Made by a program: the position numbers and the translations under genes | The notes under the pieces: model-generated | What the model was told of the DNA's origin: nothing | The model's input: only the letters and a program-made list of their open reading frames with translations | The model's database searches: none | NCBI GenBank assembly: GCA_947178105.1 | Contig: CAMWXD010000006.1 | Location: forward strand, 1 to 64,000 | Origin: an uncultured Eubacterium sp. | GTDB lineage: Bacteria; Bacillota; Clostridia; Lachnospirales; Lachnospiraceae | Direction: 5' to 3' | Length of the DNA: 64,000 bases | Shown here: positions 1,418 to 45,285 of the stretch, in pieces | Position numbering within the stretch: the stretch's first letter is position 1 | How the letters are laid out: each line of letters opens with the position of its first letter

Positions 1418-1550
1418 CAGTTTGCATTGATTTTTAACTCTTTCGGCATATTTTCTTTTGCAAAAAAGGTAACCTTTTCCCCGTATGTGATCTTTAAGCC
1501 GCCTCTTACTTAAAAAGATACCAAACGCTGAAAAAGTTACCTTTTAAATA

Positions 1551-1878
1551 CTATAACACACCTTTTCTTATATTTCTACACTGTTTGTAAAATTGTTTGA
1601 TTGTGGTTTTGGTAGTACCAGCACGCTTTCCAATATCACGGATTTATTTTTACAAGAACGATTAACCACGGACAAGCTGATTCTACCCATACATATGCTG
1701 CTTTTCCCCTCCCCCGTGTCAAAACAAGCTTTGTAAGCGTCCGCTTGTTCCAATGCTGCACATGGCCTGGCATATTTCCTAATCTGCTCCAATACTTTCC
1801 TCTTGCTATATTGAGTATCCGCCACAACGGTTCATCAGGCACCGTAAGAAACAGATACCCGTTGGAAGCCTCATTCAT
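1551..1878 (-). pseudogene. Decayed coding remnant, HTH-like 3' end
   Basis: Coding-like sequence is spread over three minus-strand frames: a start region reading MNEASNGYLFLTVPDEP, a middle part reading RKVLEQIRKYARPC in a second frame, and a 3' part reading IRDIGKRAGTTKTTIKQFYKQ in a third, ending at a TAG at 1551. The last piece looks like a helix-turn-helix. The frame changes suggest a frameshifted gene, possibly from a mobile element given the flanking direct repeats. The family is not recognised. The rest of 1418-1947 shows no gene. Confidence 0.35.
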
Positions 1879-1947
1879 TTATCGCTGTTACGTTCGTACC
1901 TGCTTCATCTCTATTTTTTTGTCCAATTTTTCATGATTCCATTTTTT

Positions 1948-2091
1948 CATAGCAAGGCTCTATCAAATGCAACCCAAATTTCCCAGCAACATTTTACGAA
2001 AAGGAATTGTAATTTCCTTACAAACTTGTTAAAATGCAAAAAAGCATATTTTTCTATCGGTTTCTTTTATCTACGACACATCCATACAAGG
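1948..2091. repeat. 144-bp direct repeat, copy B
   Basis: Second copy of the 76-219 repeat, with one A/T and one A/G difference. It ends about 50 bp before the promoter of the ABC-F gene at 2466, so whatever event made the duplication reached up to that gene's control region. Confidence 0.85.
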
Positions 2092-2141
2092 CTACCAATA
2101 AAATCGAACAAAAAACATAGAATCTTTTTCTGAAAATCCTC

Positions 2142-2169
2142 TTGCATTCCCAATGGTTTATGGTATAAT
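2142..2169 (+). promoter_or_regulatory. Sigma-A type promoter for the ABC-F gene
   Basis: A TTGCAT box at 2142-2147 is followed after 16 bases by a perfect TATAAT at 2164-2169. Transcription would start near 2176 and leave a leader of about 290 bases before the ATG at 2466, which is long for a housekeeping gene and fits leader-based control. Confidence 0.65.
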
Positions 2170-2418
2170 AAGGCTGATTACAAAGAAAGGGCACAGACGT
2201 GCAGGGTGAAAAAATGATTATTCGATAATTTAGTTTGGATTTCGCAACTGAAAAACTGCCTGGGCTGCTGGTGGATCTCACAAAACCAGAACGAACATCC
2301 AGGCGTATCTGCGTATGCCGAATTAGATTATCGCACTCTTTTGTCCCTTTTTGTATGTCTGTTTTCAGAATATATACAGGGTTTCTTTGTGTGAGTCTGT
2401 TTTCGGATACGGGAACGG

Positions 2419-2462
2419 GCTTTTTCTATTGGAAAAATTAGAAAAAGCCTCGAAAGGAGGCA
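2419..2462 (+). promoter_or_regulatory. Two mutually exclusive hairpins at the ABC-F ribosome binding site
   Basis: Hairpin 1 pairs GGCTTTTTCTA (2419-2429) perfectly with TAGAAAAAGCC (2440-2450). Hairpin 2 pairs GCCTC (2448-2452) with GAGGC (2458-2462), which buries the GGAGG Shine-Dalgarno. The two share GCC at 2448-2450 and so cannot form together: hairpin 1 frees the ribosome site, hairpin 2 hides it. This is the geometry of translational attenuation. An open frame in the leader (2235-2441) ends inside hairpin 1, so a ribosome there could bias the choice. Inference from sequence only. Confidence 0.5.
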
Positions 2463-2465
2463 CCT

Positions 2466-4004
2466 ATGCTTCAGATTAAGCATTTGAATATTGTACACAA
2501 AAAAGATTTCAGGACGCTTTTGGAGGATTTTAACCTTGTGCTGAATGACGGCGATAAAGCTGTTATCATCGGCGAAGAAGGAAACGGAAAGTCCACGCTT
2601 CTGCAATGGATCTATGAACCGGATTTGATCTCGGATTACTGCGAAGCTTCGGGGGAACGGATACTGGCAAACCAAAAGGCAGGATACCTGCCACAGGAGC
2701 TGCCGCTTTCGCACTGCGCAAAAAGCCTGTATGAATATTTTACAGAAGAACCGCTGTTTTGGGACCACACCCCGAAAGAGCTTGGACGAATGGCCGGAAG
2801 GTTCGGTCTTGCCGCAGATTTTTTTTACAGCAGCCAGCCCATGGGGACATTGTCAGGCGGTGAAAAGGTAAAGGCACAACTGCTGCGGATCCTGCTGTCA
2901 GAGCCGGATCTCCTGCTGCTGGACGAGCCGTCCAACGATATTGACCTGGAGACGCTGGAATGGCTGGAAGCATTTATTCTGGAATGGAAACAGATCGTGC
3001 TGTATATTTCCCATGATGAAACACTGATCGAGCATACCGCAAATGTCGTCGTCCATATCGAACAGATCCGGCATAAGACAAAATGCCGATATACGGCTGC
3101 ACGGATGCCGTACGAGCAATACCGCAGGGAACGGCTGAGCCAGTTTGAAAACCAGGCGCGCATGGCTGCAAATGACCGCCGTGAGAAAAAACTGCGCGAA
3201 GAAAAATTTGAACGGATCTATCAGAGCGTCGCTTGTGCGCAGGCAAACATATCCAGACAAAACCCTGCCAAAGCGCGGCTGCTGAAAAAGAAAATGCACG
3301 CAGTCAAATCGATGGAACGGCGTTTCGCGCGCGAGGATCAGGCGATGACGCAGATGCCTGAAGAAGAAAGCTCCTTGTTTTTTAAGCTTGGAGGAGAACA
3401 TGCAAAGATTCCTGCCGGAAAAACCGTCATCGATTATTCCCTGGAAAAGCTCTGCACACCCGACGGGGAACGAGTGTTAGCCAAACAGGTCAGGCTGCAT
3501 CTGCGCGGCGCACAAAAGCTGTGTATCGTCGGCGCAAACGGCGCCGGAAAAACGACGCTCCTTCACAAGATTGCCGCAGAGCTGCTTGCGCGGACAGACA
3601 TCCATGCGCAGTATATGCCGCAAAATTATGAGGAGCTGCTAAAACCCTCCATGACGCCGGTTGATTTTCTCGACCAATCTGGGGACAAAGAAACACGGAC
3701 AAAAATCCGCACGTATCTGGGCGCGTTAAAATATACCGCTGATGAAATGGAACATACGATCAGCGAGCTTTCAGGCGGACAAAAGGCAAAGATTTTCCTG
3801 TTAAAAATGAGCCTTTCCAACGCGGACGTATTGATCCTGGATGAACCGACCCGCAATTTCTCCCCGCTGTCCGGCCCAGTTATCCGGCAGCTACTAAAAG
3901 ATTTTCCGGGAGCCATTATCAGCATTTCCCATGACCGCAAATATATCAAGGAAGTCTGTGACAAGGTCTGCCTGCTGACGAAAGACGGGCTTTTGGAACA
4001 ATAG
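2466..4004 (+). CDS. ABC-F family ATPase (ribosome-protection/translation factor type)
   Basis: A 512-residue soluble protein with two ABC ATPase domains and no membrane segments, the ABC-F layout; such proteins act at the ribosomal E site and some give antibiotic resistance. Domain 1: Walker A GEEGNGKST near residue 38, signature LSGGEK near 128, Walker B LLLLDEPSND near 152. A charged linker (about 205-290) joins domain 2: Walker A GANGAGKTT near 356, LSGGQKAK near 436, Walker B VLILDEPTRNFSP near 455. The EPTRNFSP ending, without the usual N-H-L-D, is seen in a subset of Firmicute ABC-F proteins. The start has a GGAGG site that can be hidden by a hairpin, suggesting inducible expression. 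The target drug, if any, cannot be told. Confidence 0.9.
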   Translation: MLQIKHLNIVHKKDFRTLLEDFNLVLNDGDKAVIIGEEGNGKSTLLQWIYEPDLISDYCEASGERILANQKAGYLPQELPLSHCAKSLYEYFTEEPLFWDHTPKELGRMAGRFGLAADFFYSSQPMGTLSGGEKVKAQLLRILLSEPDLLLLDEPSNDIDLETLEWLEAFILEWKQIVLYISHDETLIEHTANVVVHIEQIRHKTKCRYTAARMPYEQYRRERLSQFENQARMAANDRREKKLREEKFERIYQSVACAQANISRQNPAKARLLKKKMHAVKSMERRFAREDQAMTQMPEEESSLFFKLGGEHAKIPAGKTVIDYSLEKLCTPDGERVLAKQVRLHLRGAQKLCIVGANGAGKTTLLHKIAAELLARTDIHAQYMPQNYEELLKPSMTPVDFLDQSGDKETRTKIRTYLGALKYTADEMEHTISELSGGQKAKIFLLKMSLSNADVLILDEPTRNFSPLSGPVIRQLLKDFPGAIISISHDRKYIKEVCDKVCLLTKDGLLEQ

Positions 4005-7295: not shown

Positions 7296-8558
7296 TTATT
7301 TTCTTTTTGCAAGCACCTGCGCTTCATACCGTTTTACTTCATCAAACCACTGCTCCTCTGAGGTGTTGCACTGTTCGCAATATGCACTCCATATGTCGCC
7401 AAACGGCAGTATTTTTAACGCTTCCTGGCGTACCATCAGCGCTGTCCAGTCTGCGGCATCCTGCAATTTTTTCAGCTCTTCATGCGGCGTGCACAATGCG
7501 GACAGCAAAGCCTTCTGCCAGCTCCGGAATCCAACCGTCCATGCCGAGATACGGTTGATGCTGGCGTCAAAATAATCGAGTGCCATATGGACTCTGCCTA
7601 ATGCACCGCAGCGCACGATTTCTTTTGCCATTTCCTTCGTCTCATCATCAAACAGCACGACATGATCGGAGTCCCATCTGACCGGACGGGTAATGTGCAG
7701 CGCGATCTCCGGGAAAAATGCAAGCAGAGCCGGGATCTTGTCAGATACGACCTCTGTCGGGTGATAATGCCCGTTGTCCATCAGCGGCAGGCAGCCTTCG
7801 TGCGTCGCCGCAAAGGATAAGGAAAATTCTGCGCTTCCTACCGTATACGATTCCACGCCGATACCGAATACTTTGGATTCGACACATGGCTTTACAAGCT
7901 GCGGGTCATGCGGCTGCGCAATGATCTCTTCAATCGCTGCCTTATAGCGCTCTCTTGGCGCAAGGCGGTCTGCCGGGATATCTTTGGCGCCGTCTCCCGT
8001 CCAGATATTCATGACACACGGTACGCCTGTTTCTTTTGCAAAATATTCAGAAATACGGATACATGCCTTGCCATGCTCGATCCAGAAGCGTCTCGTCTCT
8101 TCATCCGGGCTGGACAGTGTCAGGCCGTCCTTGATTTTATCATGGGAGAAAAAGGTCGGGTTAAAATCCAGCCCCATTCCGCGTGCCTTTGCAAATTCCA
8201 CCCATTTTTGAAAATGCTTTGGTTCGATCTTGTCTCTGTCTGCAAACTCCCCGTTTTCAAAAATCGCATAGCTGGCGTGCAGGTTCAGTTTCTTCTTACC
8301 AGGTGTCAGCTTTAATACTTCGTCGATATCCTGCATCAATTCTTCCGGCGTCCTCGCCTTGCCCGGATAATCCCCAGTTGTCTGTATCCCTCCGGTCAGC
8401 GGGCCCTTGTGGTCAAACCCGATCACGTCGTCGCCCTGCCAGCAGTGCAGCGATACTGGTATTTCTTTTAATTTTGCAATCGCTGCGTCAGTGTCTACCC
8501 CATATTTTGCATAAGCTTCTTTTGCAGATGCGTATCTTTCTTTTCCTGTCATTGTCAT
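7296..8558 (-). CDS. rhaA: L-rhamnose isomerase
   Basis: 420 residues, the family's usual size. Interconverts L-rhamnose and L-rhamnulose with Mn2+/Zn2+ in the cytoplasm. Family segments visible: SLHCWQGDDVIGFD near residue 36, LNLHASYA near 91, GLDFNPTFFSHDK near 131, MNIWTGDG near 183, MDNGHYHPTEVVSD near 255 and VRWDSDHVVLFD near 289, which carry metal and substrate ligands. It follows rhaB by 19 bases and precedes rhaD, a standard catabolic order. Confidence 0.95.
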   Translation of the reverse strand: MTMTGKERYASAKEAYAKYGVDTDAAIAKLKEIPVSLHCWQGDDVIGFDHKGPLTGGIQTTGDYPGKARTPEELMQDIDEVLKLTPGKKKLNLHASYAIFENGEFADRDKIEPKHFQKWVEFAKARGMGLDFNPTFFSHDKIKDGLTLSSPDEETRRFWIEHGKACIRISEYFAKETGVPCVMNIWTGDGAKDIPADRLAPRERYKAAIEEIIAQPHDPQLVKPCVESKVFGIGVESYTVGSAEFSLSFAATHEGCLPLMDNGHYHPTEVVSDKIPALLAFFPEIALHITRPVRWDSDHVVLFDDETKEMAKEIVRCGALGRVHMALDYFDASINRISAWTVGFRSWQKALLSALCTPHEELKKLQDAADWTALMVRQEALKILPFGDIWSAYCEQCNTSEEQWFDEVKRYEAQVLAKRK

Positions 8559-8577
8559 TCCTCCTGCTTTCTATGTA

Positions 8578-9990
8578 TTATTTTGTTGTTGGCTCGTAAC
8601 GCTTTATTCCAAATGAATCAAACACACACTTTCTTGCCTGCGCAAGGCTTTCAAGCTCCTTTTGGCATATCATCTGCGCCATCAGGTTGCCGATTGCCGT
8701 AGCTTCTCCCGGCCCTGCATAAACCGTCTTTCCAGTTGCATCCGCCGTAAGCTGGTTTAAATATGCCGCATTGGAGCCTCCGCCGATAATATGGATGCTT
8801 TCATACGCTTTCGCCGTATTTTTCTCCAGCTCCCGGACGGTCTTTCCATAGCACTGCGCCAGGCTCTGGTAAATGACCGCCGCGATCTCCCCTGTTGTCT
8901 GCGGCACACGCTGCCCGCTCGTGCGGCAAGCCTCCTGGACTGCCTGCGTCATATTTTCCGGCGCCAAAAACGCGTCGTCATTGACATCCACGCGGGACGG
9001 AAACGCACGGTCAGACTCAGCCATCTCACACAGCTCTGCAAACGAATATGCGTCTTGCAGTTCATGGCGGACAGACTGGATCATCCAAAGCCCCATAATA
9101 TTTTTCAAATACCGGAAACGGTATTCATAGCCGCCTTCATTTGTAAAATTCCCCTGCCGGCTTTCCTCTGTACAAATCGCTTCCGGCGCCTCAATGCCCA
9201 TCAGCGACCACGTCCCGGAGCTGATATACATGCCCCCGTCTGTTGCAACCGGCATTGCCATAACCGCCGAAGCCGTATCGTGGCTGGCGCAGAGCACTAC
9301 CTTGCAGTCAAAGCCGACTTCTTTTTGCAGCTCTTTTTTCAAGCTTCCCACCTCAGTGCCCGGCATTTGCAGCGGCAGGAATATTTCTTTCGGATAGCCA
9401 AGCATTGCAAGCAGCTCTTCGTCCCATTGCTTGTGAACCGGGCTTACAAGCTGTGTCGAAGTGGCGTTTGTATATTCCGATACTTTTTTTCCAGTCAGCA
9501 AAAACTGAAAATAATCCGGCAGCATTAAAAATGTCTTTGCTTTTTCCAAAAGCTGCGGCTCCTGTTTTTTCACTGCCATCAACTGGTAGATCGTGTTAAA
9601 GATTTGCTTTTGGATCCCTGTCCGTGCGTACAGCGCATCTTCCGGGATAATCCTGTACACCTCGCTGTCCATGCCGGCTGTCCGGCTGTCCCGATATCCG
9701 TAAGTATCTCCGAGCACCTTTTCTTCTGCATCCAGCAGCACATAATCAACCGCCCATGTATCAATCGACATGCTTACCGGGATTTTGCCTAATTCCCTGC
9801 ATCTTTTCATGCCGTTTACGATTTCTGCAAACAGGCGCTTTGTATCCCACAACAGCTTTCCTCCCTGCCTGTCCATGCCGTTTTCAAATCGGTAGATCTC
9901 TTCCAGCACCATTGTTCCGTTTTCCAGATGCCCAAGTATATGGCGTCCGCTGGAAGCCCCGATATCTACAGCCAGATAATATGCAGCCAT
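8578..9990 (-). CDS. rhaB: Rhamnulokinase
   Basis: A 470-residue FGGY-family sugar kinase that phosphorylates L-rhamnulose at position 1. Seen: the N-terminal LAVDIGASSGRH phosphate loop, SIDTWAVDYVLLD near residue 71 with the catalytic-type Asp, CASHDTASAV near 235, YISSGTWSLMG near 256, and the C-terminal IIGGGSNAAYLNQLTAD adenosine motif near 393. First gene of the operon. The ATG at 9990 has a GAGGAG site; an upstream in-frame ATG at 10023 does not. Confidence 0.94.
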   Translation of the reverse strand: MAAYYLAVDIGASSGRHILGHLENGTMVLEEIYRFENGMDRQGGKLLWDTKRLFAEIVNGMKRCRELGKIPVSMSIDTWAVDYVLLDAEEKVLGDTYGYRDSRTAGMDSEVYRIIPEDALYARTGIQKQIFNTIYQLMAVKKQEPQLLEKAKTFLMLPDYFQFLLTGKKVSEYTNATSTQLVSPVHKQWDEELLAMLGYPKEIFLPLQMPGTEVGSLKKELQKEVGFDCKVVLCASHDTASAVMAMPVATDGGMYISSGTWSLMGIEAPEAICTEESRQGNFTNEGGYEYRFRYLKNIMGLWMIQSVRHELQDAYSFAELCEMAESDRAFPSRVDVNDDAFLAPENMTQAVQEACRTSGQRVPQTTGEIAAVIYQSLAQCYGKTVRELEKNTAKAYESIHIIGGGSNAAYLNQLTADATGKTVYAGPGEATAIGNLMAQMICQKELESLAQARKCVFDSFGIKRYEPTTK

Positions 9991-41844: not shown

Positions 41845-42396
41845 ATGGCTTACTACGACCAGCAACATCGCGAAAAAATAACTTATTTTAATTCCATGTG
41901 GTCAAAGCTTGATGGAATTGAAAAACTTGCACGTATTTACAAAATAAACGATATTGCACAAGATAATAACCTAAAGCTGCTGCAAACCCTTGTACTTTTT
42001 GATTTTCAGAACCAGCCAGGACGCGAAGGCAGCGACGCAATCGACCGTTATGGCAACGCATGGGAATTAAAAACTGTAAATATTGATCTTACAAGCAGTT
42101 TTTCAACGAACCATCACACAAACTTAGAAAGAATCGCTGTGTTCCGTCAAGAACGCTGGTTATTTAGTACTTACCGGGGAATTTCTTTGCAAGAGGTTTA
42201 TGCCGTTAGTCCTGCCGCCCTTGAACAATATTTCACGAAATGGGAAGAAGCCATACGAGAGAAGATGGCGGAGAACAATAAAAACGTACACTTGAATAAT
42301 CCTAAAATCCCCTTAAAGTATGTGCATCAAGTTGGTATAAAGGTTTATCCTGTTGACAGTCCAATTGACCCCGCCAAGGTATTACAGGTTTTGTAA
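41845..42396 (+). CDS. PvuII-like type II restriction endonuclease
   Basis: 183 residues. From memory the match to R.PvuII (157 residues, cuts CAGCTG) is close and collinear: DIAQDNNLKLLQTLV, QPGREGSDAIDRYGNAWELK, TVNIDLTSSFSTNHHTN, FSTYRGIS, and NPKIPLKYV. The catalytic triad corresponds to D64, E74 and K76; the paired His that read the site in PvuII are present in STNHHTN. Thus likely active with the same or a similar site. It has extra residues at both ends. The gene runs toward its methylase and overlaps it by 15 bases. The ribosome site is also well placed for an out-of-frame ATG at 41840. Confidence 0.92.
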   Translation: MAYYDQQHREKITYFNSMWSKLDGIEKLARIYKINDIAQDNNLKLLQTLVLFDFQNQPGREGSDAIDRYGNAWELKTVNIDLTSSFSTNHHTNLERIAVFRQERWLFSTYRGISLQEVYAVSPAALEQYFTKWEEAIREKMAENNKNVHLNNPKIPLKYVHQVGIKVYPVDSPIDPAKVLQVL

Positions 42397-43359
42397 TATT
42401 TCCATTTGCTGTAGCGTCGGTATTACAATATCTTTGCCGGAAAGAATTTCCGTGTAATACCGATGCGCCTGTTCTTCATTTTCAGCAAACCGGAACACGC
42501 TGTTTGCTACATAATCCATACTCAAATCAATGCTTAACCATTTACGCCCTAACTCTTCCGCGACTTTGCCTGTTGTATTACTGCCGCTGAAAATATCAAC
42601 AACAAAGTCGTCATGATCGGTCAGCATTTTGATAAAAAATTCGGGCAGCTTTGCGGGGAACCGCGCCGGATGGCCTTTCATCCCTATTGCTTTACAATAT
42701 CGTAAATATTGACTATTACTTTCACTGTTACTAATCTGCAAGAGGTTAGAAGGAATTGCACCGCCATTATCTTTTGCCCATGACTTCATGCCCATCACAT
42801 GGCCTGACGGACGGACTGTTCCCTCTTCTTTCACAAAACTCCTTGGATTATGAATAAGGCTTTTCATCCTTGAAGAATAAGGTACCAATACTTTTCTAAT
42901 ATCTGCTTTTGGTAAATTACTTTTTGAAAACCACCAAACTGTATTGACCGACGTTTTGCAGCGCATTTTTCTCTTATTCACCCATTCAATAGGAGTGGGA
43001 AGTGCAGACGGATTATGCCAATACATATCCTGCGCTAAGTGATAACCTATTTCATCACACATTTTGAGCATAAAACGAAAAGGATAAAGCGCTTTCACAG
43101 GATGTCCTTTCTGATATGCCCCACCAAGATCGATCACAAAAGACCCTGTTTCTTTTAACTTGACATATGCTTCTCTGCCAAACTGTAACAGCCAATCTAC
43201 ATATTCATCCTGTCCTACTTCTCCATAACTTTTATGCCGCTGTAAGCTGAACGGCGGTGAAGTCATAATCAAATCAACGCTGCTGTCATCAAGCGTGCCC
43301 AATACCTCAAGGCTATCACCTTGCATACATGTTCCCAATTGTGTCCTATATCCTGCCAT
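42382..43359 (-). CDS. PvuII-like N4-cytosine DNA methyltransferase
   Basis: 325 residues, beta-class amino-MTase: catalytic motif IV TSPPFSLQR at residue 33 comes first, AdoMet motif I DIFSGSNTTGKVAEEL near 254 last, the order of M.PvuII. It protects the host by methylating the inner C of the site. Transcribed with the small HTH gene, four bases behind it, and converging on the endonuclease. In the PvuII system R and M are divergent with a C gene; here the order is different. The overlap of R and M ends at 42382-42396 makes antisense transcription likely. Confidence 0.92.
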   Translation of the reverse strand: MAGYRTQLGTCMQGDSLEVLGTLDDSSVDLIMTSPPFSLQRHKSYGEVGQDEYVDWLLQFGREAYVKLKETGSFVIDLGGAYQKGHPVKALYPFRFMLKMCDEIGYHLAQDMYWHNPSALPTPIEWVNKRKMRCKTSVNTVWWFSKSNLPKADIRKVLVPYSSRMKSLIHNPRSFVKEEGTVRPSGHVMGMKSWAKDNGGAIPSNLLQISNSESNSQYLRYCKAIGMKGHPARFPAKLPEFFIKMLTDHDDFVVDIFSGSNTTGKVAEELGRKWLSIDLSMDYVANSVFRFAENEEQAHRYYTEILSGKDIVIPTLQQMEILQNL

Positions 43360-43363
43360 ATGA

Positions 43364-43567
43364 TCACCTTTCTATATGTTCGATCACGCTTTCAACATTA
43401 CTATCCAAACAAGAACAAATACGATCGATAATATTCATTGAAACCTGTTCTCCGCGAGCCATCTTATCCATTGTTGATTTTGAAATTCCTGTTGCCTGCA
43501 TCAGTTGCTTTTTTGTCATATCCTTATCAATCAGGAGTTTCCAAAGCGGTTTATAAGAAAACGCCAT
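43364..43567 (-). CDS. Small XRE/Cro-type HTH regulator of the R-M system
   Basis: 67 residues with one HTH: MTKKQLMQATGISKSTMDKM near residue 17, then ARGEQVSMNIIDRICSCL. It takes the place of a controller (C) protein, but precedes the methylase, not the endonuclease. The ATG at 43567 follows AAAGGTGG by eight bases; a GTG at 43579 is less likely. The HTH gene and the methylase gene are four bases apart. It probably represses its own promoter through the dyad at 43606-43625 and so sets methylase level. Confidence 0.85.
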   Translation of the reverse strand: MAFSYKPLWKLLIDKDMTKKQLMQATGISKSTMDKMARGEQVSMNIIDRICSCLDSNVESVIEHIER

Positions 43568-43592
43568 CGTTTGCACCACCTTTCAATATGGA

Positions 43593-43844: not shown

Positions 43845-44414
43845 TTAGATATTTTTCAGTTTCTGAAACGTTCCAAATATCATTTCATACGTATTTTCAC
43901 GATTAATATCCACTAAAGGGCAAACTTTACATACGATCCGGTTTACACCCCAATGCTTTCTTGATACCTCTTCTGGCATTTCTGCAACTAATATCTCATC
44001 TTCCAATTCATCATACTCCACATCATATAACGGTTCCGTAAAATGCCAATAACTTGCAGGCGATACCCCTGGAGAAAAATCCCTTATATTTTCATATTCA
44101 AATTTCGCAAGTTCTATCATAGGCTCTTCATAAGCATCTGAATATAACACAATTTCCAAAACATAGATCGGGCCATTCCGCCATCCATTCTTAAGCTTTC
44201 GATCCTTTGTATCTTGGAAAAGCAAAAACAACTGGTTTATATTCCATCCCCAATAATCCGTATCTGACTTATATCTTAAAAATTTAGGAGACATAATTTC
44301 AAACTCTTCTGTCTCCTCCGTCAACACTTTACTGTATTCAATTAACTTTGCAACATTTTCATGCGTTTTATTAACTATCTCAAACGCGCGATAAATATTT
44401 TTACCTATATTCAT
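43845..44414 (-). CDS. Hypothetical protein, 189 residues, partner of the nuclease-like gene
   Basis: An acidic soluble protein. Visible: IYRAFEIVNKTHENVAKLIE helix at the start, YKSDTDYWGWNINQLFLLF near residue 48, PIYVLEIVLYSDAYEEP near 81, YWHFTEPLYDVEYDELEDE near 121 and a C-terminal KVCPLVDINRENTYEMIF. No motif known to me. The start overlaps the end of the upstream nuclease-like gene by 14 bases, so the two are translationally coupled. Lies beside the PvuII-like R-M genes, same strand as the methylase. Function unknown; a defence role is a guess from place. Confidence 0.75.
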   Translation of the reverse strand: MNIGKNIYRAFEIVNKTHENVAKLIEYSKVLTEETEEFEIMSPKFLRYKSDTDYWGWNINQLFLLFQDTKDRKLKNGWRNGPIYVLEIVLYSDAYEEPMIELAKFEYENIRDFSPGVSPASYWHFTEPLYDVEYDELEDEILVAEMPEEVSRKHWGVNRIVCKVCPLVDINRENTYEMIFGTFQKLKNI

Positions 44415-45141
44415 AGTACTGTTCCTCCACCATTTCGTGAAAACAAAAAGAAAAGGAATCCTCTGTTAACGAATCTTCATCTATACGAAATTGCCAATAA
44501 TCCTCATCCAAAACCTCAGGCATCTGCAACTCGAACCCAGAAAATCTTAAAAACCCCTTTTTTTCCAATAAATCAATCAGATCAGATACGATTAACTGTT
44601 CAAATCGGTTCAATTCCTTTAGCTCCTTTAGCTGAATCAACACCTCTTGCCAGGATAAATACCCCAACTGAACGCCATCTACCACATTTATTCCCTTTAT
44701 AGTATCCGCACAAACAAACTCATCTGCCAGCAAAAGCAGTAATTTTTTCTTACCAGCGCCAACTGCTTTCAAAACCCTCGCTTCTCTGCTCAGTTGATTG
44801 ATCGAATCTTCAGCCGATCTATCCTCCCAGTCCTCCCCATCCTCAGAAGATAGCCCGCTTTTGTATTTTACCTCTATGCCAACCACAACTGACTGAAAAT
44901 CCAACCGCGCATCCAACTCTGTAAACCTGTCATTCTCTTTAACCCTTTCCCAAAGAAATAAACAATCATCCCAATATTGCTCGTTGACTGAATCAATCAT
45001 TCTTTGCAACTTTATAGGACGTATACCATTTCTTAAAATTTTTTTCATACCTTTCTGAAAAGAAATGTAACGTAAATTTCCAAAAAAATTCCCTGTCAAC
45101 TCATCCTCTTCTTTTACTTTTCCTCTTATTTCTGCAATCAT
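44401..45141 (-). CDS. Predicted PD-(D/E)XK nuclease of unknown family
   Basis: 246 residues. EEDELTGNFFGNLRYIS near residue 11 gives the alpha-A Glu, FTELDARLDF has D77, and VVGIEVKYKSG has E90-V-K92: together a PD-(D/E)XK core (D-x12-E-x-K), followed by SINQLSREARVLKA near 113 as in many restriction-type nucleases. The C-terminal part is helical (EVLIQLKELKELNRFEQLIV). It begins with ATGA, overlapping the stop of a frameshifted small frame upstream, and has no good ribosome site of its own, pointing to coupled translation. Overlaps the 189-residue gene. Likely a nuclease or nuclease-derived module of a defence operon. Confidence 0.72.
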   Translation of the reverse strand: MIAEIRGKVKEEDELTGNFFGNLRYISFQKGMKKILRNGIRPIKLQRMIDSVNEQYWDDCLFLWERVKENDRFTELDARLDFQSVVVGIEVKYKSGLSSEDGEDWEDRSAEDSINQLSREARVLKAVGAGKKKLLLLLADEFVCADTIKGINVVDGVQLGYLSWQEVLIQLKELKELNRFEQLIVSDLIDLLEKKGFLRFSGFELQMPEVLDEDYWQFRIDEDSLTEDSFSFCFHEMVEEQYYEYR

Positions 45142-45285
45142 ATTAAATTTTTCCGAAGCTCCTCCATGATTTTTGTTTCATCTGCAAGGGCAAGCGCCTC
45201 ACAGGTGCGTATTACGTCTGCACTTTCATAATCGACACATCATACTGCACAGTTCCGCCCGGTTTTCCATATCTGTCTTATCCAT
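45138..45285 (-). pseudogene. Small frameshifted gene heading the nuclease operon
   Basis: From an ATG at 45285 the frame reads MDKTDMENRAELCSMM and then hits a stop; one base over, the frame continues CVDYESADVIRTCEALALAD then ETKIMEELRKNLI to a TGA that overlaps the ATG of the nuclease gene (ATGA). 148 bases is 49 codons plus one. The codon-like second half and the tight coupling say this was a gene of about 49 residues. Frameshift, sequencing error or programmed shift are all possible; no slippery run was seen. Confidence 0.5.

Follow-up and report, generated by a model that had tools for sequence, protein, structure and literature searches.

A recurrent two-gene module coding for a predicted PD-(D/E)XK nuclease and a predicted chaperone-fold partner, found beside a PvuII-like restriction-modification system in an uncultured Eubacterium sp.

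In the CmdTAC system a chaperone senses a phage capsid protein and controls an effector (PMC11618068), and TY-chaperones, which form the YbjN/type III secretion system (T3SS) chaperone superfamily, are predicted in ARG-centred conflict operons, in which REase-fold effectors may also be present (PMC9503650). We analysed a stretch of 64,000 nucleotides from an uncultured Eubacterium sp. of the Lachnospiraceae (contig CAMWXD010000006.1, assembly GCA_947178105.1), hereafter the window, which carries two overlapping genes, A and B. These genes belong to a scattered but constant module of nuclease and chaperone fold that is related to a candidate defence family listed in PADLOC. A literature search aimed at this system did not find the A/B pair named. 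The pair is laid out as follows.

44401 to 45141, minus strand: gene A (246 aa), nuclease-like protein of predicted PD-(D/E)XK fold
43845 to 44414, minus strand: gene B (189 aa), for which a TY-chaperone (type III secretion chaperone/YbjN) fold is predicted
44401 to 44414, minus strand: A/B overlap of 14 nt with the B start codon; GGAGG lies just before this start, within A

A preliminary description of the window had placed frames of 246 and 189 residues beside a PvuII-like restriction-modification (R-M) system, and both open reading frames (ORFs) are indeed found there on the minus strand, with a PF09225 match next door. Their lengths are beyond chance, since the longest chance ORF in 2000 first-order Markov simulations of the A/B stretch reached 135 codons. 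A scan of genome contigs with A returned 36 loci, and B is present in 34 of these, so that homologues do recur as a pair far beyond this genome; both loci that have no B (L034 and L040) have a broken A. The window, a plasmid copy and five more genomes bring the close-group set to 43 loci, none of which has an unbroken A without B. When the broken L034, L039 and L040 are left out, 40 pairs remain, 34 of them separate genes and six a single fused ORF (L018, L022, L023, L026, L037 and L047).

With B starts set at the nearest Met before a conserved motif, the overlap is exactly 14 nt in 22 of the 34 separate pairs, and the frame relation between the two genes is kept in 31 of them (overlaps of 14, 17, 20 or 23 nt), the exceptions being L015, with an overlap of 4, and L011 and L038, with gaps. 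Most pairs also have a purine-rich, ribosome-binding-like stretch just ahead of the B start, in the last codons of A, which together with the conserved overlap supports the earlier suggestion that the two proteins are made together. Distances among A proteins correlate with those among B proteins (r 0.854, against a maximum of 0.282 in 2000 permutations), as is expected of any jointly inherited pair. A profile of B searched against 398 genomes of the phylum gave six matches, the same six as for close-group A, an agreement read from the listed genomes.

Decay of the pair can be observed in L011, L034, L039 and L040, where A is shortened, truncated, split or fragmentary, and none of these is an intact A that has lost B; in L011 A ends early, at 230 aa. 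A further locus, L005/L077 (G326:C21:42695-42853), has a 55-codon B remnant and no A, beside a gene that we take to be Fic-like. The absence of an unbroken A without B among the 43 loci, and the state of the decayed copies, of which L039 retains B next to a broken A and L005, L034 and L040 are fragmentary, also fit a toxin-antitoxin or addiction pair, with A as toxin and B as antitoxin, serving the upkeep of a mobile stretch without phage sensing. B lacks, however, any recognised DNA-binding domain for autoregulation, and other defence genes are found among the neighbours, so we regard this explanation as doubtful; its fit with the distribution is considered below. Duplicates of kept loci (L001-L004, L054-L056 and L058-L061) and the broken rows L005, L034, L039 and L040 were dropped, L011 was retained despite its short A, L062, which has a stop inside A, entered no alignment, and L006 was left out of the structure runs.

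Core residues of A are E12, D77, E90, K92 and Q116. The D77/E90/K92 core had been noted before with correct numbering; these three residues, together with E12 and Q116, are invariant in all 47 aligned sequences, and both this invariance and the predicted structure support the nuclease core. A thus combines the conserved D...(D/E)xK core of the PD-(D/E)XK superfamily with an alpha-beta core in its predicted structure, and the best PDB matches of this structure are mostly PD-(D/E)XK enzymes, with McrC, BspD6I and EcoT38I among the matches. The model is of low confidence beyond residue ~200. We conclude that A is likely a nuclease-like protein of predicted PD-(D/E)XK fold, which would be expected to cut DNA. 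Two further matches of A, to the Pfam family AAA_24 (E 0.0089, below cut-off) and to PHROG 26806 (E 0.065), were taken as chance. A differs from the CRISPR ancillary nucleases Can2 and Card1 in that no CARF domain is recognised in it and in that it is coupled to B.

Gene B has no match in Pfam, PADLOC, NCBIfam or PHROGs at the thresholds applied, and no chaperone or YbjN sequence match to the B family was found in Pfam (45 members) or among PDB sequences. Among 38 aligned B relatives, PADLOC gave nothing apart from hits of individual members, none stronger than E 0.004, of which those to JetA and AbiEi (E 0.004-0.06) were taken as chance. By structure, on the other hand, 28 of the first 31 matches of the B model have the TY-chaperone (T3SS class I chaperone/YbjN) fold, and the order of its DSSP elements, plus two short extra ones, was compared with the TY-chaperone topology given in excerpts of PMC3575483. 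The 189-residue protein, previously described as being of unknown family, therefore still stands outside the family libraries and has a predicted TY-chaperone fold, which would be shaped for holding a flexible chain of a partner. When the fold of B was searched among viral models, nothing below E 0.28 emerged. These fold comparisons speak for the families listed among their matches.

Restraint of A by B is the simplest reading, as B seems built to hold a flexible chain and, within the close group, A is never seen intact without it. We tentatively propose, giving it somewhat less than an even chance, that A and B form a self-contained module in which chaperone-like B holds nuclease A inactive until a foreign protein or the loss of B frees A. 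The peptide-holding B would bind A during synthesis and A would stay folded but inactive; a foreign protein engaging B, or loss of B, would then release A, which would cut the DNA of the invader, perhaps a phage or plasmid, or that of the cell itself, with B acting as both restraint and sensor. The foreign-protein trigger is modelled on CmdTAC, in which a chaperone likewise serves as phage sensor (PMC11618068, excerpted text), and this is a functional analogy with no claim of homology. CmdT is an mRNA ADP-ribosyltransferase, and CmdTAC comprises three genes, whereas only two stay together here. Like the ARG-centred operons, which may include REase-fold effectors (PMC9503650), the locus would join a TY-chaperone fold to a nuclease partner; it differs in that only two genes recur, B has no Pfam chaperone match, and no ARG, phosphatase or Nudix/WYL regulator was seen as a steady neighbour of the pair. 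That A/B is an undescribed anti-phage system, whose TY-chaperone-fold sensor frees the nuclease when a phage protein competes for its peptide-binding surface, seems rather unlikely. The idea that the tail of A is the peptide bound by B is weakened because the conserved end of A encodes the ribosome-binding stretch and the start of B.

The pair has relatives in a listed family, so the earlier statement that no described system has this make-up needs amending: A matches three models of the PADLOC candidate family PDC-M15A (E 9.8e-8, 4e-6 and 2.1e-5), a weak match in a library without cut-off, and one model, PDLC04456, is matched by 44 of 46 aligned A members at E 0.01. The term PDC-M15 was not found in the literature search. 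Eight more distant A relatives were considered (L063-L070), seven of which have a B-like gene of 177-263 codons next downstream (that of L069 judged by eye); in the remaining one A is interrupted by a stop. A profile built from six B-like proteins aligns along its length with the B profile (probability 93.9, E 1.6e-7, in a single comparison), and these six have no PADLOC match. The B-like neighbours and the profile alignment suggest that PDC-M15A-like nucleases may generally be accompanied by a B-type partner. The likeness to PDC-M15 thus lies in gene A and in the B-like neighbour of its distant relatives, and the differences are that the window A matches weakly and that B and B-like proteins match no PADLOC model.

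The 36 loci are mostly from Bacillota by record titles, and the taxa bearing A include Lachnospiraceae, Clostridium, Bacillaceae, Trichococcus, Exiguobacterium and Selenomonadales, plus Gastranaerophilales and Hyd24-12 bins. The pairs in the Gastranaerophilales bin (L030) and in Hominisplanchenecus murintestinalis (L031) look alike, with an A of 208 aa in both, and the contig of that bin may be misassigned. Within the order, A is found in 2 of 392 genomes, own genome included, and the A profile matched 12 of 398 genomes of the phylum, six of them close-group, own genome among them. The patchy spread in the order and the one copy on a mobilizable plasmid, from Niallia, are in line with an addiction pair, but this plasmid is the sole match among 72,556 plasmid records. 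No match was found in phage records for the window A or for the B relative of L013, and no pair was confirmed in viral contigs, in each case at the sensitivities applied, so a phage or viral home for the pair was rejected.

Host DNA repair or stress response, with A as an EndoMS-like repair nuclease and B as a YbjN-like partner of a single-stranded DNA-binding protein, as DR1245 is of DdrB, would draw on the predicted folds of both proteins. This is very improbable given the rare and scattered occurrence (six close-group genomes in the phylum), the G+C content of the pair, which at 0.366 is below that of the flanking ABC transporter genes (0.503) and esterase gene (0.54) and of the window (0.471), and the different gene that a sibling species has at the same site. 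In this genus relative (G787, locus L090) the same esterase and ABC transporter genes, 77% and 92% identical, lie ~2 kb apart; among ten genus-relative loci, L090 is the one that shows the two flanking genes side by side in this way. The interval holds one ORF of 590 codons (1500-3272), presumably an AAA-ATPase-like protein. Its first residues are MIAEIKGKV, and over 32 bp this region matches the beginning of A at 90.6%. The match to the first nine codons of A suggests that the sibling may keep a remnant of the A start where another, unrelated gene entered.

In the window, the esterase gene (end 41803) and the ABC transporter gene (end 45315) enclose the A/B pair together with the genes of a PvuII-family R-M system:

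41845 to 42396, plus strand: PvuII-family restriction endonuclease (PF09225, E 6.7e-39)
42382 to 43359, minus strand: DNA methyltransferase adjoining the PvuII-like endonuclease gene
43364 to 43579, minus strand: small Cro/C1-type helix-turn-helix (HTH) protein beside the methyltransferase (PF13443, E 1.4e-15)

The endonuclease and methyltransferase genes of this system (window 41845-43579) are convergent, with a 15 bp overlap, and the small HTH gene lies upstream of the methyltransferase gene in the same direction. The A/B pair is not part of the R-M system, as the latter already comprises an endonuclease, a methyltransferase and an HTH gene, and as the neighbours of the pair vary.

In order to describe these neighbours we took up to three genes a side of at least 70 aa, called with a simple in-house script, from the 42 loci other than the window, obtaining 221 proteins (112 upstream and 109 downstream). 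No steady third gene accompanies the pair: the widest BLAST group covers five loci, one other covers three and the rest two, and several of the two-locus groups come from sister species (L019/L020 and L022/L023). At E 1e-10, upstream neighbours matched 159 PADLOC families and downstream neighbours 166, while 122 control genes farther out (rank 7-10, 32 loci) matched 113; these counts are not an enrichment statistic, because the families are redundant and the matches are not tied to members. Families among the matches listed, 25 for each scan, include type I and IV restriction, Thoeris, Leo, HerA, DUF4297 and type IIG; matches to Cas12f, WYL and some others may be generic proteins. In a targeted scan of ten proteins picked by eye from nine loci, nine matched PADLOC, in eight of the nine loci (L011 had no match):

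L010: neighbour is Leo
L015: neighbour is DUF4297
L016: neighbour is Orf5/HEC-06
L017: neighbour is PDC-M26A
L018: neighbour is a methyltransferase (MTase_II)
L025: neighbour is type IIG
L034: neighbour is type I (here A is broken and B gone)
L038: neighbour is type IV

In Bacillus sp. FJAT-29790 (L013) the pair is preceded by two genes (7580-8984) that are presumably ThsA and ThsB of Thoeris, a family present in the neighbour matches, and the genes downstream of the pair in L073 (10629-15256) we take to be a CRISPR-Cas operon. Defence genes are thus found near the pair in at least nine of the 43 loci, the window counted. The expectation that the pair recurs in defence islands holds to this extent, as recurrence near defence genes and not as measured enrichment, because the control genes also gave many families of the defence library.

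In the main alternative, B would serve for targeting or specificity, as a subunit of a constitutive restriction nuclease that recognises DNA which is modified or otherwise foreign and that has no dedicated methyltransferase. R-M genes adjoin the window pair, and elsewhere the pair is near an MTase_II gene (L018), a IIG gene (L025), a type I gene (L034, where the pair is broken) and a type IV gene (L038); fusion in six of 40 pairs gives one polypeptide, and the structural matches of A to McrC, BspD6I and EcoT38I point the same way. Set against this is the chain-holding fold predicted for B, from which restraint of A is the simpler reading, and we consider a specificity subunit unlikely.

The preliminary description also included a frameshifted small gene upstream of A, which we reject. 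Its two pieces lie in different frames, the first ending in a stop codon and the second open up to A with its only start codon an ATG nine codons before its end, and no counterpart was found in relatives: nothing better than E 1.9 was found in ten genus-relative loci, and the best relative, in which only 223 bases upstream of A are present, aligns to the window solely inside A and B. Of the overlaps of 4 and 14 bases reported for these frames, that of 14 is the one between A and B, and the 4-nt ATGA overlap comes from the unsupported second piece. The ATG of the first piece (45285) sits within the -10 element of a site resembling a promoter:

45312 to 45284, minus strand: promoter-like site TTGATA-N17-TAGAAT upstream of A, 10 of 12, consensus match only

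This is one of two sites with that score, the best in the region, and the sole one whose -10 box is preceded by TG. The scan gave 11 sites where shuffled sequence gave 7.0 (sd 2.9), no clear excess, and the promoter is therefore no more than suggested; we read the stretch upstream of A as a leader that probably includes it.

The pair may be a module of virus defence. The analysis offers a candidate partner for the listed PDC-M15A family, absent from the libraries used, together with a clear set of invariant residues in the nuclease. If the proposal of a chaperone-restrained nuclease is true, A/B would be a minimal two-gene case of a secretion-chaperone fold recruited as an immunity sensor or restraint.
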